Source: Flagellimonas marinaquae
GTDB taxonomy: Bacteria; Bacteroidota; Bacteroidia; Flavobacteriales; Flavobacteriaceae
Direction: 5' to 3'
DNA length: 64,000 nucleotides
NCBI RefSeq assembly: GCF_003992675.1
Contig: NZ_RZMZ01000014.1
Coordinates: 203,760 to 267,759, forward strand
In this document: positions 20,804 to 52,037 of the stretch, piece after piece
How the letters are laid out: each line of letters opens with the position of its first letter
How positions within the stretch are numbered: the stretch's first letter is position 1
The notes under the pieces: generated by a model
The model's database searches: none
Told to the model about the DNA's origin: nothing
What the model saw: the letters and a program-made list of their open reading frames with translations, nothing else
Translations under genes and position numbers: made by a program

Positions 20804-20893
20804 GACCGTTGCACCATGTGGAGGCATTACCATAAAAAAGTGCCTAAAAGAGTGTTGTCAGCGCAATATCAATGTAAATTTAACGTTAACTAA

Positions 20894-20924
20894 TTGTAAA
20901 TTAAACGTAATCTAACTATATTTA
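20894..20924 (+). promoter_or_regulatory. likely promoter of the 40-codon ORF (TTG -20 bp- TATATTTA)
   Basis: TTG at 20894-20896 and TATATTTA at 20917-20924 (7 of 8 to TAnnTTTG) are 20 bp apart, ending 20 bases before the ATG at 20945. Confidence 0.4.
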
Positions 20925-46286: not shown

Positions 46287-46491
46287 GATTTTCTGATGTA
46301 TTTATGGTAGGAATGAATGCATTACCCAAGGATTAGTCAAGAACCGCATAAAATCCTTTCAGTTGCCTTGCTAATTTCTTCAATTATGAAATGTAATAGT
46401 CCCTAGACACGACTTTCCGTAACCACCCAAAAGATCAAAAGCAATAAAAAATTGTAAGATAATTCGCATCCTGATTTTCACAGATCAACCC

Positions 46492-46533
46492 AAAAGGCCC
46501 ATCCGTCAATTCAAAAGGGGCATCCGTCAATTG
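46492..46533. repeat. tandem 21-bp direct repeat upstream of a promoter (possible operator)
   Basis: Unit 1 (46492-46512) and unit 2 (46513-46533) share AAAAGG, then CATCCGTCAATT, differing at about three positions. The period is exactly 21 bp, two helical turns, and the second copy ends 27 bases before a TAACTTTG element. This layout suits a dimeric activator site, but the binding protein is unknown. Confidence 0.5.
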
Positions 46534-46559
46534 GTTCAAAATCGGATAAAATCTCCATC

Positions 46560-46567
46560 TAACTTTG
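46560..46567 (+). promoter_or_regulatory. -7 element (TAACTTTG) before the collagen-like lipoprotein gene
   Basis: Exact TAnnTTTG. A TTG at 46531-46533 is 26 bp upstream, slightly too far, which would fit an activator-dependent promoter. The leader would be about 110 bases. Confidence 0.45.
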
Positions 46568-46681: not shown

Positions 46682-47236
46682 ATGAAAACAACAACTTTGA
46701 ATTTTTTGAAAATGGGTCTGTATGCGATTATGGGCCTTAGTGTACTCTTAACCTCTTGTTCCCCTGAAGACGGAAAGGACGGTATTGATGGCAAAGATGG
46801 TGCCCAAGGGCCAGCCGGACAAGATGGGAATGCCGATGTACTCGCCTCTGAATGGCAAAATATTGAGTGGAACCTAAATTCACAACAAAATTTTGGAGTC
46901 ATGCTTATAGAAGTTAAGGATATCGATTTGCAAGAATTTATCACCACGGGTGGAGTTATCATGGTATATTTTAAGCTAATACTTGATGAATCAGATACTG
47001 TTGTTTATTCACTTCCGGCTACCTTAGGCAACCTGTATGTCGATTTTGCACTTTATGATTCTACTGATACTAGTGGAATCACTATCACAATGAGTAGTTC
47101 AGACAACATTGTTCCAAGTTACGCAAACAACCCGAACTATAATGTCCGTTACGTACTAGTGCCAGCAAACGTATCAGAAGCAAGCGGTTTAAATCTGAAC
47201 AACTATAAAGAGGCATCCAAGATTCTAGGGCTATAA
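46682..47236 (+). CDS. lipoprotein with short collagen-like Gly-X-Y segment
   Basis: A 184-residue protein with lipobox VLLTSC (lipid Cys 26). Immediately after it, residues 31-51 form seven Gly-X-Y triplets (GKDGIDGKDGAQGPAGQDG), a collagen-like stalk. A beta-rich C-terminal domain follows, in which I recognise no family. Lipoproteins of this type are common in Bacteroidota and may trimerise through the stalk. A predicted promoter with an upstream 21-bp tandem repeat precedes it and a strong terminator follows, so it is probably a single regulated gene. Function unknown. Confidence 0.85.
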   Translation: MKTTTLNFLKMGLYAIMGLSVLLTSCSPEDGKDGIDGKDGAQGPAGQDGNADVLASEWQNIEWNLNSQQNFGVMLIEVKDIDLQEFITTGGVIMVYFKLILDESDTVVYSLPATLGNLYVDFALYDSTDTSGITITMSSSDNIVPSYANNPNYNVRYVLVPANVSEASGLNLNNYKEASKILGL

Positions 47237-47460: not shown

Positions 47461-49863
47461 ATGCGCCGCATAACTCCCCCCACATCCTATGCCGGTATTT
47501 CGGTCCTGTTTTTATTATGGTCCTTCGTTTGCCATGCACAACTGCATCCTGAAAAAATCGATTCCGATATTATTTCCCTTCGTTCCCAGACCTCTCTGTT
47601 TTTCGCAGGTGAAAAAGCTTATAGCTTTAAGGAAATCCAAGGACATAAAGAAGCGGATTTTGTTCCATTGACCAGTGTAAAGGAAAACCTCGGGTTTTCC
47701 AATGAACACTATTGGCTAAAATTTACCTTGGATAATCCATCGGACCAGTTTGCCAATTATTATTTGGAAACTGCCCGACCCATCACGGATGTGGTCGAAT
47801 TGTATGTAGTCAATAAAAATGGCAAAGTAAGTAAGCAAATCAGCGGTGATCAAATCCCGTTTGCCAAAAAGAGTGTCCAACATAGAAAATCCATTTTTGA
47901 CATACGGCTAAAGCCCAATGAAAAGTTACAGGCCTTTTTACATCTAAAAAGTGATGGCGAAGTGGTCATGCTTCCCATGAAACTGTACCAAGAGAGTAGT
48001 TTTTTTGAGCTTACCTACAAAGAACAGGTATTCTATGGTTTCTTTTACGGAATCTTGATCTTGGCCTGCATCATTTACCTATTCTTCTTTTTTGCCTTAA
48101 GGGACCGGGCTTTTTTGTATTACCCGCTTTATGTACTTTTTATTGCATTGATGCAATTCTCGTTAGATGGCTTTTTCCATCAATATTTTACCCCACAGGG
48201 AGGATGGCTGTCCGATCGAGCCGTACTGTTAACGGCTTTTGTTTCCCTTTTCTTTTTTGGCAAATATGGTGGCTCCTACCTCGATTTGAAAAAAAATAGC
48301 CCTGTGTTGCACATCGCCAACAAGGTATTGGCCTTTTCTTTGATTGTAGGTCTCACCCTATTGGCCGTTGCCCCGTCATTTGAGTACTGTTATCCATTGG
48401 CCAATGGTTTGGGCATCTTGGTTTTGGCCCACATGATTGTTTCTATAGTTGTGTTGAAAATCAAAAAAGTAAAAATTGACCCCTACTTCATCATAGGTAT
48501 TTCCTTTTTGCTTATCGGGTTTATTGTTTTTATCCTGAACAATTTCAATGCGATTGAAAATTCGTTCCTTACCAGTAATGGGGCCAAGTTTGGCATAGGC
48601 TTGGAAATTGCATTCCTATCCATCTCCATGATCAACAGGATAAGGGACCTTAGAATGCAAAATGAGCAAAACCAACTATTGGCGCTGCAAAGAGCTGAGG
48701 ACATGAACCAAATCAAATCATCCTTTTTATCCAATATCAGCCATGAATTGCGAACTCCCTTAAACCTGATCATGGCGGTAGCCTCTTCACTTAAAGAGGA
48801 AAAACAGGATAAGGAGCTCGAAGAAAAGTGCAAATTGATCTTGGGCTCATCCAAGAACCTTTTGGGCCATATTGAGGATATCTTGGATTTTACCGTCATC
48901 GAAAAGGGCGATCAAGAACTCAAAGAAGTACCCTTTGAACTGAAACCGACTCTACAAAAAGTAATCGATCAACAGAGAAAGAAAGCACTTGCCAAAGGGT
49001 TGGAGTTTAAGAGCTCAGTTGATGAAAATTTACCTGCCCGCATCGTGGGTGACAAGGCCAAGCTTACCCAAATCTTGAATCATTTAGTGGACAATGCCAT
49101 TAAATTTACCAATGTAGGTGCAGTGGATATAGACATCGCTTGCAAAAAGAAAGATGACAGAGCATCACTCGATTTTACCATTAAGGATACCGGAATTGGG
49201 ATATCTAAAGAAAAGATGAGCACCATCTTTGAATCGTTCACCAAGAAATCCTTCATGGACAAGCGGGAGTTCAGTGGTTTGGGCCTAGGCCTTTACATTG
49301 TAAAAACCTATGTCGACTTACAGAAGGGAACCGTTGAGTTCATTGACAATGATGTTAAAGGTACCATCTGTAAACTGAGTTTGAATTTTGAGATAGAGGA
49401 GGATGAAGAGATTTTGGAGCCAGTTCCAAATGCCATTGTTGATAAGAATGAGTCAAATCAATACAATGTACTGCTTGTGGAGGATAACAAAATGAACCAA
49501 ACCGTGGTAAAACTGTTGTTCAAAAAGAACTTGCCCAATGCGAAACTTAGCATAGCCAACCATGGTAAAGAAGCACTTGAAATACTAAAAGATGGTAGCT
49601 TTGATTTTATTTTGATGGATTTGCAAATGCCCGAAATGGATGGTTTTGAGACCACTTCCATCATACGAAGTGGAAAGGCTCCTTGTGAACCAAAAATTCC
49701 CATTTTAGTGCTCACCGCCGACAATACCGCGAAAACACGTAAAAAGATTTTCCGATTAGGGGCGAACGACCTTCTCACAAAACCTGTTAACGGCCCGCGT
49801 CTGTTGGCAAAAATGCAGAAAATATCGATCGTAGATGCCGCAAAGATTGATAAGGTGGCATAA
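47461..49863 (+). CDS. hybrid sensor histidine kinase / response regulator with 7TMR-DISM sensor
   Basis: An 800-residue protein. A signal peptide (to about HAQ, 27) is followed by a 7TMR-DISM extracellular domain (about 30-180, with NPSDQFANYYLETARPITDVVELY), seven helices (about 185-390) and a short coiled linker. The HisKA domain has phospho-acceptor H428 (ISHELRTPLNL), and HATPase_c has N box NHLVDNAIKFT, DTGIGIS and GLGLGLY. The C-terminal receiver domain carries phospho-acceptor D720 (LMDLQMPEMDGFE). All catalytic residues are intact. No DNA-binding output is fused. The ligand is unknown; DISM sensors are thought to bind small, often carbohydrate-like, molecules. Confidence 0.92.
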   Translation: MRRITPPTSYAGISVLFLLWSFVCHAQLHPEKIDSDIISLRSQTSLFFAGEKAYSFKEIQGHKEADFVPLTSVKENLGFSNEHYWLKFTLDNPSDQFANYYLETARPITDVVELYVVNKNGKVSKQISGDQIPFAKKSVQHRKSIFDIRLKPNEKLQAFLHLKSDGEVVMLPMKLYQESSFFELTYKEQVFYGFFYGILILACIIYLFFFFALRDRAFLYYPLYVLFIALMQFSLDGFFHQYFTPQGGWLSDRAVLLTAFVSLFFFGKYGGSYLDLKKNSPVLHIANKVLAFSLIVGLTLLAVAPSFEYCYPLANGLGILVLAHMIVSIVVLKIKKVKIDPYFIIGISFLLIGFIVFILNNFNAIENSFLTSNGAKFGIGLEIAFLSISMINRIRDLRMQNEQNQLLALQRAEDMNQIKSSFLSNISHELRTPLNLIMAVASSLKEEKQDKELEEKCKLILGSSKNLLGHIEDILDFTVIEKGDQELKEVPFELKPTLQKVIDQQRKKALAKGLEFKSSVDENLPARIVGDKAKLTQILNHLVDNAIKFTNVGAVDIDIACKKKDDRASLDFTIKDTGIGISKEKMSTIFESFTKKSFMDKREFSGLGLGLYIVKTYVDLQKGTVEFIDNDVKGTICKLSLNFEIEEDEEILEPVPNAIVDKNESNQYNVLLVEDNKMNQTVVKLLFKKNLPNAKLSIANHGKEALEILKDGSFDFILMDLQMPEMDGFETTSIIRSGKAPCEPKIPILVLTADNTAKTRKKIFRLGANDLLTKPVNGPRLLAKMQKISIVDAAKIDKVA

Positions 49864-50204: not shown

Positions 50205-52037
50205 ATGAAAAAAGAGAAGCTACAGATAGGGTTTAGTGGTGGAATCTTGTTTTTCGTGTTATTTTTTTTTGTCCAACCGTTAGTCTCGCAAATAGCCCAA
50301 TCAATCCCATATACCATTTTTGAAACTCAATTGGACACGGTCAGTTTCAATGGCAATATGTCACAAATTGATTTCAAAGCTCCCCCTGATTCCAAAACGA
50401 CCTCACCAAAAAATATTTATTGGACCAAACTAGATTTTTCCTCGGTTTTTCCGGAAAAGGCACAAGACGATAGCAAGTGGATTTTGGATATAGGTTATCT
50501 AAACCTTGCCAAAATATACTTTCTTAACGAGGGTAGGCTGGATTCCACTATTCTGGGCAGTTTTGAACTGAATAAAGATTTTACCGGTAGTTTTGAGTTT
50601 TCACGTGATCAATTATTGAATGATCAATTTCTTCTATTAAAGTTTTCTAAGCTAAACAATAGACAAATCCTCGGAAATAAAAAGTTTATGTTGTATCCCA
50701 AAGAGCAACATAAGTTTCTTAAAGATTATGTACACGTAGCACAATCAAACATTATAGCATTGAGCTATTTATTGTGGGGAGGTGTTTTTGTGGGCATTGT
50801 AATAAGCTTAATCTTTTATCGCACTTTCAAACAACGTGAATATATTTATTATAGTTTGTATGCGCTATCATTGGCCCTTTTTCTAGGTCGCTTCGGGATA
50901 GACTGGTATGCCAATCACATAGGAAATTACTCCTTAGTGAATTTTATATTAAATAATGCGTTTGAACTTTTGGCCGGGATGTTTTATGCATTATTCCAGA
51001 AGCACTTTTTAGGAACAACTATTAACTATCCCATATTGGACAAAGTGATTCAAGGAGCTGTGATAATTTTTATTTTCTGGCTCTTGTTTGATACTGCCGT
51101 GATCATTTTTGAAAAATATACGCTTCACCTTGTGCTTTTGGATATAAGAGCAGTTCTTTTATCTATTTTGGTATTGTTCGCCATATTATATCTATCCATA
51201 AACTTTAAATCAAACCTAAATTGGTTTATCATAATTGGGTCTTTGATTTATGGCACGGGTTCCGTTCTGGTATATCTTACTGGAAATGGAAATTATCTTA
51301 GGTTGGCAGCCATAGGAGAAATAACGGTATTTTCTCTCGGTTTGGGCTATAAAGTGCACTTGGAAAACAAAGAAAAAATAAAGACGGAGCAAGAAGCTTC
51401 CATGACATACATCAAGCTTTTACGTTCCCAGCTCAATCCACATTTCCTTTTTAACGCTATGAATTCCATACAACAATTGGTATTGTCCGGGAATAGGACA
51501 AATGCTTTGAATTATCTTGGAAAATTTAGCAAACTAATGAGGTTCACTTTGGAAAGTTCCTCGCAAGAAAGTATCCTTTTGTCAAACGAGATAAGTTTTT
51601 TAAAAACCTATATGGATCTTGAGGCTTTGCGATTTGATAATGGATTTGAATATAGCATTGAAATCGATAAAGAAATCAATCCCAATACAATAGAAATTCC
51701 TCAAATGGTTTCCCAGCCCTTTGTTGAAAATGCCATAATCCATGGATTAATACCCAAAACCAATGGACCCAAAAACATCTGGATTTATTTTAATAAAAAG
51801 GATAATGATATCATTGAATGTATTATCGTGGACAATGGTATTGGGCGTGCAGCCAGTCAAGAACGTAAAACAAACTATACCCGTCATAAATCCATAGGGA
51901 TATCCCTGATAAAAAAGCGCCTAGATAATCTTAGAAAAAATAGTTTCAACGATTCTACTGTAAATTTTGAAGATATTCATGATAGCCATGGTAAACCGCT
52001 AGGCACCAAAGTAACCCTTACCATTTTAGTTAAATAA
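50205..52037 (+). CDS. LytS-type sensor histidine kinase with 7TMR-DISM sensor
   Basis: A 610-residue protein. The N-terminal signal or anchor (residues 10-30) is followed by a diverged DISM-type extracellular domain. Seven helices span about 180-395, including IFYRTFKQREYIYYSLYALSLALF, the DISM hallmark. The His_kinase domain of the LytS/YehU group has acceptor H413 (QLNPHFLFNAMNSIQ) and SKLMRFTLESS. The ATPase domain carries QPFVENAIIHGL and DNGIGR. This class usually pairs with a LytTR response regulator, but none is in the window, so this is an orphan here. Confidence 0.9.
   Translation: MKKEKLQIGFSGGILFFVLFFFVQPLVSQIAQSIPYTIFETQLDTVSFNGNMSQIDFKAPPDSKTTSPKNIYWTKLDFSSVFPEKAQDDSKWILDIGYLNLAKIYFLNEGRLDSTILGSFELNKDFTGSFEFSRDQLLNDQFLLLKFSKLNNRQILGNKKFMLYPKEQHKFLKDYVHVAQSNIIALSYLLWGGVFVGIVISLIFYRTFKQREYIYYSLYALSLALFLGRFGIDWYANHIGNYSLVNFILNNAFELLAGMFYALFQKHFLGTTINYPILDKVIQGAVIIFIFWLLFDTAVIIFEKYTLHLVLLDIRAVLLSILVLFAILYLSINFKSNLNWFIIIGSLIYGTGSVLVYLTGNGNYLRLAAIGEITVFSLGLGYKVHLENKEKIKTEQEASMTYIKLLRSQLNPHFLFNAMNSIQQLVLSGNRTNALNYLGKFSKLMRFTLESSSQESILLSNEISFLKTYMDLEALRFDNGFEYSIEIDKEINPNTIEIPQMVSQPFVENAIIHGLIPKTNGPKNIWIYFNKKDNDIIECIIVDNGIGRAASQERKTNYTRHKSIGISLIKKRLDNLRKNSFNDSTVNFEDIHDSHGKPLGTKVTLTILVK

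Follow-up and report, generated by a model that had tools for sequence, protein, structure and literature searches.

Class II operators of AraC-family activators, such as araI1-I2, consist of direct repeats that adjoin the promoter at a spacing of about 21 bp, and class II AraC sites usually overlap the -35 region. To our knowledge, the operators of specific activators have been little mapped in marine Bacteroidota. LytTR regulators, as set out in those sections of PMC6193735 drawn on here, bind 9-bp repeats separated by a gap of mostly 12 bp, which lie mostly 10 bp (4-11 bp in S. mutans) upstream of the -35 region, and they often activate their own operons. The flavobacterial sigma-A consensus, as given in the corresponding sections of PMC9723704, is TAnnTTTG at positions -12 to -5.

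Here, we describe a 21-bp repeat in Flagellimonas marinaquae, located in a window of 64,000 nucleotides (the whole stretch of DNA that was analysed). It is one of about 36 near-identical arrays in the genome and is very probably bound by a regulator of surface proteins that all of them share. We place the probability that these arrays are the operators of an activator of surface genes at roughly 90%. The features behind this reading were computed directly: a recurrent array with a 21-bp period, a distance of 27-28 bp to the -7 element, conservation across the genus and enrichment before genes for surface proteins.

The array at the window locus

The initial annotation had described a 21-bp tandem repeat placed as an activator site before a collagen-like lipoprotein gene, with an exact -7 element 27 bases further on. 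Both the repeat and the element were found as described, and the locus is composed of the following features:

46479..46499, + strand: degenerate distal (third) 21-bp unit CACAGATCAACCCAAAAGGCC, read from the sequence
46500..46520, + strand: 21-bp unit CATCCGTCAATTCAAAAGGGG, found by Tandem Repeats Finder and matching the pattern with 0 mismatches
46521..46532, + strand: promoter-proximal half-site CATCCGTCAATT, from the sequence and the pattern search
46533..46559, + strand: 27-base spacer, in which the usual position of the -33 element shows no conserved TTTG (alignment of 22 arrays)
46560..46567, + strand: -7 element TAACTTTG, an exact TAnnTTTG, 27 bases past the array end
46682..47236, + strand: controlled gene, a collagen-like (Gly-X-Y) lipoprotein of 184 aa (open reading frame, first ATG at 46682)
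47461..49863, + strand: hybrid kinase (7TMR-DISM, HisKA, HATPase and receiver by Pfam), a neighbour whose linkage to the array is only a candidate
50205..52037, + strand: LytS-type kinase (His_kinase PF06580 and 7TMR-DISM_7TM), likewise a neighbour with only candidate linkage to the array

Tandem Repeats Finder reported positions 46491-46532 with a period of 21, 2.0 copies and 90% matches, and the pattern search of the own genome (G000) returned the same array at G000:C14:250259-250291 with 0 mismatches. The half-site CATCCGTCAATT is among the most conserved blocks across the 36 arrays of this genome, and the degenerate third unit recurs nearly identically in the array upstream of a paralogous lipoprotein (L021). 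The lipoprotein itself was recognised from its sequence by a Gly-X-Y run and the lipobox LLTSC, and matched no Pfam family at E<=0.001.

Positions 46503-46512, within the array, read CCGTCAATTC, a sequence that also forms the core of the region targeted by the universal 16S rRNA reverse primer. This resemblance is taken as coincidence because the array sits upstream of a -7 box. The window holds a second tandem repeat at 20873-20915, with two copies of a 22-bp unit (TGTAAATTAAACGTAAACTAAT; 85% matches).

Recurrence across the genome

The genome comprises 3.42 Mb in 18 contigs. Searching it with a dyad pattern at up to 3 mismatches gave 25 matches, and the reversed pattern gave 0. The genome-wide search for repeat pairs that the initial annotation had proposed therefore returned a recurring element and not a random scatter. 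Overlapping matches were merged into 22 arrays, whose alignment (A1) yielded a sequence-only profile (R1). This profile found 50 matches at E<=0.01, collapsed by hand into 35 arrays, or 36 with the inclusion of one at E=0.0103.

The dyad patterns and R1 presuppose the 21-bp period, which was therefore retested with the spacing left free. Among units with up to 2 mismatches in the fetched loci of this genome, scored for successive distances up to 60 bp, 34 of 39 distances were 21 bp and the other 5 were 42 bp, with no other value; an earlier gapped-pattern search had given a spacing of 21 in 4/4 cases. Under a looser rule (up to 4 mismatches per unit), three units were seen in 28 of the 36 arrays and two units in the other 8. 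At one locus (L069; G000:C2:187000-198000), three arrays (4292, 4826 and 5440) lie within about 1.2 kb among small open reading frames, which looks like local duplication. For the window repeat, an origin by chance or local duplication is ruled out by the genome-wide recurrence, the promoter phasing and the reversed-pattern controls.

Promoter phasing

Given that R1 includes the -7 box, the distance to the promoter was tested only on sites found by the pattern alone. When TAnnTTTG was scored at offsets 0-59 after the 22 pattern-only arrays, six exact copies fell at offset 28 and one, the window's own, at offset 27, and none was found at the other 58 offsets. Approximately 0.03 exact copies would be expected by chance in those 44 places, at the TAnnTTTG frequency of the window, and the mean score at offset 28 was 4.09 of 6. 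Relatives were represented by 29 pattern-only sites from 29 other genomes, out of the 38 others with a pattern match. In these, TAnnTTTG matches of at least 5/6 peaked at offsets 27 (8 sites) and 28 (6 sites), and another 17 were distributed among 13 further offsets; exact copies occurred once each at offsets 27, 28 and 10.

The arrays thus carry the -7 box of a Bacteroidota sigma-A promoter, exact in the window and phased in the 22 arrays, and the 22-array alignment held no conserved TTTG or TTG at the expected -33 position. Since the -7 box occupies -12 to -5, the distance from array to box places the end of the repeats at about -41. An array at about -41, with a -7 but no -33 element, is what an activator requires. 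The reading of the repeat as an activator site, put forward in the initial annotation, is therefore well supported as regards a recurrent and promoter-phased operator, from which we infer activation itself.

As a mechanism, we propose that one transcriptional activator would bind these arrays and control a regulon made up mainly of genes for the cell surface. Two or three protomers might line up head-to-tail along the same face of the DNA, as 21 bp corresponds to two helical turns. The proximal repeat would then end at about -41, immediately upstream of the would-be -33 box, where the activator could help the housekeeping sigma factor at promoters with a TAnnTTTG-like -7 element and no proper -33 element.

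Target genes

A first gene in the direction of the array was present at 33 of the 36 arrays, and the remaining three, with no clear first gene, were left out of the target table. The 33 first genes comprised 10 lipoproteins (LIPO), 15 with a signal peptide or early membrane segment (SP/TM) and 8 with neither, compared to 19, 54 and 125 respectively among 198 other open reading frames from the same stretches and the window. Lipoprotein genes were enriched behind the arrays (Fisher p=0.0027), an enrichment that the initial annotation had proposed looking for, as were both surface classes together (25/33 versus 73/198; p=4e-5); the classes derive from crude ad hoc signal-peptide rules, with gene starts partly set by hand and two of them not Met.

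Four of the targets are collagen-like lipoproteins, as judged by their Gly-X-Y runs (the window's own, two in L079 and one in L160); three of them were scanned with Pfam, which named the collagen repeat in one. Further targets include an alpha-2-macroglobulin-like lipoprotein, lipoproteins with TIG, cadherin-like and DUF285 domains, outer-membrane beta-barrels, comM/YifB (Mg_chelatase) and a pyridine-nucleotide-disulphide oxidoreductase, here called trxB. At L160 (G000:C16:274000-279500, positions 1198-2918), an AraC-type gene (HTH_18) lies divergent to the array-controlled collagen-like lipoprotein.

Arrays of this kind might also be a dispersed repeat family, similar to REP or RUP elements, with no regulatory role. 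Such a family would explain near-identical 33-mers, spacer included, at unrelated loci, as well as the array at C13:13228, which faces the 3' end of a convergent gene and has no gene in its own direction. We consider it very improbable, given the 27-28-bp distance to TAnnTTTG, the first gene found in the array's direction at 33/36 arrays of this genome and the conservation of the array at orthologous promoters across species.

Conservation in relatives

The sample comprised 118 genomes, 71 of the window's genus and 47 of other families in the order, with other genera of the same family absent. Judged by the named relatives of the type-A AraC gene described below, the genus is Allomuricauda/Muricauda/Flagellimonas. 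The strict pattern occurred in 39/118 genomes, all within the genus (39/71, with 0/47 in the other families), and the controls gave 0. At E<=0.01, R1 found at least one match in 69/71 genomes of the genus, ranging from 0 to 50 per genome; seven of the 71 had a single match, and some of these are weak (E about 1e-3) and may be due to chance.

A relative of the lipoprotein was present in 32/71 genomes, and an R1 array was found at 14 of the 30 lipoprotein loci fetched, including one (L180) in which it precedes a neighbouring paralogue. Part of the loci without an R1 array were inspected (L176, L188 and L198-L202). Two genomes without an R1 report (G029 and G040) show a diverged 21-bp repeat before the lipoprotein, so that in diverged species the R1 counts are minimum values and a low count is no sign of absence. 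In the intergenic region of L188 (G029), a related lipoprotein is preceded by a three-unit array, CAAATATCAATTCATATACCT, in which the operator sequence has diverged at unchanged spacing.

The targets are shared in kind between species. Collagen-like and TIG-like lipoproteins, trxB and comM also carry arrays elsewhere, and the arrays of G064, G056, G034 and G067 precede genes of the same kinds as those of the own genome, seven rows of this comparison (L283-L289) being covered in part at most. Orthologues of trxB with an array were found in G064 (L268) and G056 (L297), and those of comM in G056 (L300) and G067 (L332). Conservation in relatives with the same lipoprotein gene, on which the initial annotation had staked its reading, was seen; neither of the refuting outcomes that it had named, a repeat not conserved in such relatives or a motif scattered at random, was observed.

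A LytTR-family regulator as a possible reader

The initial annotation had likened the repeat to LytTR-type operators and noted, 3.6 kb downstream, a LytS-type kinase with no visible regulator. The kinase is present as described, at 50205-52037, with His_kinase PF06580 and 7TMR-DISM_7TM domains, and its link to the array is not supported. In a synteny comparison of ten loci picked for carrying an array, together with the inspected loci that have no R1 array, the lipoprotein of G029, G055 and G037 lies directly beside yqeY with no LytS gene between (in G029 the following gene is YqeY by Pfam). The window LytS kinase is thus not supported as the partner of the array. No LytTR gene was found on the window's contig at E<=0.001, and the domain scan found no DNA-binding domain in the hybrid kinase. 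A gene resembling this hybrid 7TMR-DISM kinase, as judged by its N-terminus, adjoins the lipoprotein in G018, G070, G017, G067 and G066.

The likeness to LytTR operators stands in its spacing and position, which fit the published geometry. The array consists of direct 9-bp repeats with a 12-bp gap (TCCGTCAAT-12-TCCGTCAAT), within the 11-13-bp gap of LytTR operators. The repeat ends 28-29 bp before -12 and, there being no -33 element for reference, its equivalent position would fall inside the 4-11-bp range. The likeness does not extend to a strong consensus match or to the neighbourhood of LytTR genes. The LytTR consensus is [TA][AC][CA]GTTN[AG][TG], from which the array unit differs by 1 mismatch; among shuffled units, 27% reach 1 mismatch and 2% reach 0. 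With 29% of shuffled units matching as well or better, the consensus match was set aside as too weak to serve as proof of a LytTR site.

Eight LytTR genes were found in the own genome, of which four adjoin a LytS-like gene and four do not (BLAST with the window's kinase). The array nearest to any of them is 7.8 kb away, one of the eight sits on an array-free contig of 8.4 kb, and with filters off the flanks of the eight loci gave a best R1 score of 8.9 bits (E 0.046) and no array. At none of these loci does a LytTR gene stand next to an array or under its control. Self-control is common in the LytTR family and is not known to be obligatory.

In G056 and G067, an array promoter stands upstream of a 5'-truncated LytTR gene, beside a siroheme-synthesis gene (Sirohm_synth_M by Pfam in L299). 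At the first of these loci (L299; G056:C4:301660-304060), the array promoter is followed by the start of an outer-membrane-like gene that runs into a LytTR gene without a start. At the second (L327; G067:C82:236600-239000), the LytTR gene is 5'-truncated and an array fragment lies at the break; the gene had seemed to be a LytTR gene right behind an array, and was rejected as a truncated remnant. The siroheme locus of the own genome (L081; G000:C13:8500-18500) has kept the array, with no gene behind. Truncated LytTR genes behind arrays may be accidental neighbours, and arrays may act as break or recombination points (L299, L327 and L081).

In three further genomes (G011, G048 and G050; L198, L199 and L202), a LytTR regulator and a 7TM kinase-like gene lie divergent to collagen-like lipoproteins. 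These clusters contain no R1 array, nor was such a repeat found by eye. The regulator of G011 shares 47% identity with the LytTR protein encoded at G000:C7:460189. Considering the geometry together with these gene neighbourhoods, a LytTR-family response regulator would be the likeliest single family for the reader, at odds a little short of even.

AraC-type genes: reader or target

A second candidate is an AraC-family activator that would activate both itself and the surface regulon through direct repeats. Two types were distinguished: type A, a short HTH_18 protein of 210 aa whose hydrophobic N-terminus appears to span the membrane (G000:C2:130125-130754), and type B, a short soluble AraC relative in other species. 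The second-best array of the own genome stands before the type-A gene. Full-length relatives of type A (E<1e-52) number 35 genes in 34/71 genomes, and a 21-bp direct-repeat pair lies upstream of 33/35 of these genes in 34 genomes, with 0/35 in the reversed-upstream and gene-body controls (up to 3 mismatches, counted against a consensus built on the very same promoters). R1, which was trained on the own genome, finds arrays at 25/35 type-A genes at E<=1. Behind the type-A gene of L072 (4006-8254) follow a TonB-dependent receptor gene (Pfam) and a gene with weak TPR matches only, for which a SusD-like label was dropped on these Pfam results; the start of a similar receptor gene lies behind the type-A gene in L065 (G032).

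Type-B genes show the same arrangement. Arrays stand 56-65 bp before the short type-B genes in G005, G016, G031, G050 and G070, and with G001 and G012 the array is present at 7/9, a count that leaves out a short fragment in G005; in the other two cases, G041 has a single-unit remnant and G035 lies at a contig edge. Three long type-B genes are also preceded by an array (L280, L320 and L340). Genomes with type A have a median of 15 R1 matches (n=34) versus 4 in those without (n=37; Mann-Whitney p=1e-5, uncorrected for relatedness). AraC-type genes are therefore more consistent regulator-gene neighbours of the arrays than LytTR genes. Both the 21-bp period, two helical turns, at a fixed distance to -7 and the array before an AraC gene (33/35 type-A genes, controls 0/35) are what an AraC operator would show.

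Against an AraC reader, neither type A nor type B accompanies the regulon throughout. Full-length type A is missing from 37/71 genomes, including four (G064, G034, G056 and G067) that carry 20-26 R1 matches and keep the same kinds of array targets. No type-A relative was found in 77 stretches downstream of most arrays of these four genomes, and type B is missing from them at E<=1e-16. Type-A AraC as the sole regulator was dropped, since some array-rich genomes without it share the kinds of targets. Thirteen more distant long type-B relatives have no clear array, two of them scoring slightly above the 99% null. The arrays end at about -41, whereas class II AraC sites usually overlap -35. Furthermore, the recognition helices of types A and B, read from sequence, differ, which makes it easier to see both types as targets than to have both read one motif. 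Types A and B are likely array targets, possibly self-reinforcing ones, and an AraC-family reader is a serious if less likely rival explanation.

The persistence of the regulon in species without type A or B is also what would be expected if the reader came from another family that binds head-to-tail repeats, such as a response regulator of the OmpR/PhoB type or a Bacteroidota DNA-binding protein yet to be characterised. In that case, the AraC genes would be no more than targets, as would the truncated LytTR gene. With no LytTR gene of the own genome near an array, neither LytTR nor AraC is genetically tied to the arrays, which is in keeping with such a family. On the other side, no candidate protein was identified for it, and PhoB-type boxes repeat at 11 bp, whereas no 11-bp unit pair was found in the loci of the own genome. 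We consider a reader of this kind improbable. Whichever family supplies the reader, the arrays themselves are best read as operators of an activator of surface genes.

Significance and comparison with known systems

The array offers a testable regulon: it has a consensus and a fixed geometry relative to the promoter, counts about 36 targets in a single genome and varies naturally over 71 genomes. It could lead to the regulator of surface lipoproteins of the collagen-like, TIG, cadherin-like and alpha-2-macroglobulin kinds. More speculatively, a global activator that has not been described so far might drive a surface regulon in one genus of marine flavobacteria through phased 21-bp arrays. This regulon would have been rapidly remodelled between congeners (0 to 50 profile matches per genome) and have captured several AraC-type regulator genes as members under array control, with regulator and operator possibly co-evolving; we hold this wider picture to be tentative.

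The kind of element is already known, and the regulon and its consensus are without a description in the literature searched. Neither the array nor the regulon is described among the titles and abstract starts of the literature matches listed. The F. psychrophilum promoter paper describes no such repeat array in the passages covered, those around TANNTTTG and the terms for repeats and regulators (PMC9723704).

The arrays share with AraC class II operators (e.g., araI1-I2) direct repeats approximately 21 bp apart and next to the promoter. There the regulator gene is often self-regulated, and here arrays precede AraC-type genes. Unlike those operators, the array ends at about -41 and does not overlap -35, and the candidate AraC genes are absent from several array-rich genomes.

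The LytTR-regulated (LRS) promoters of S. mutans HdrR/BrsR and others, in the sections of PMC6193735 drawn on, have head-to-tail repeats with the same 21-bp period. Those repeats sit just upstream of the -35 region, and the present arrays end just upstream of where a -33 element would be. The LytTR operators covered there are activating, and their regulators activate their own operons (PMC6193735). The present arrays differ in often having three units, in a Bacteroidota -7 element with no -33, in their surface lipoprotein targets, and in that no LytTR gene of the own genome lies near an array; their TCCGTCAAT resembles the LytTR ACCACTTAC/ACCGCTTAT only loosely. With the sigma-A promoter motifs SM1-3 of F. 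psychrophilum, as presented in the passages covered, the arrays' promoters have the -7 box in common, TAnnTTTG at positions -12 to -5 (PMC9723704).
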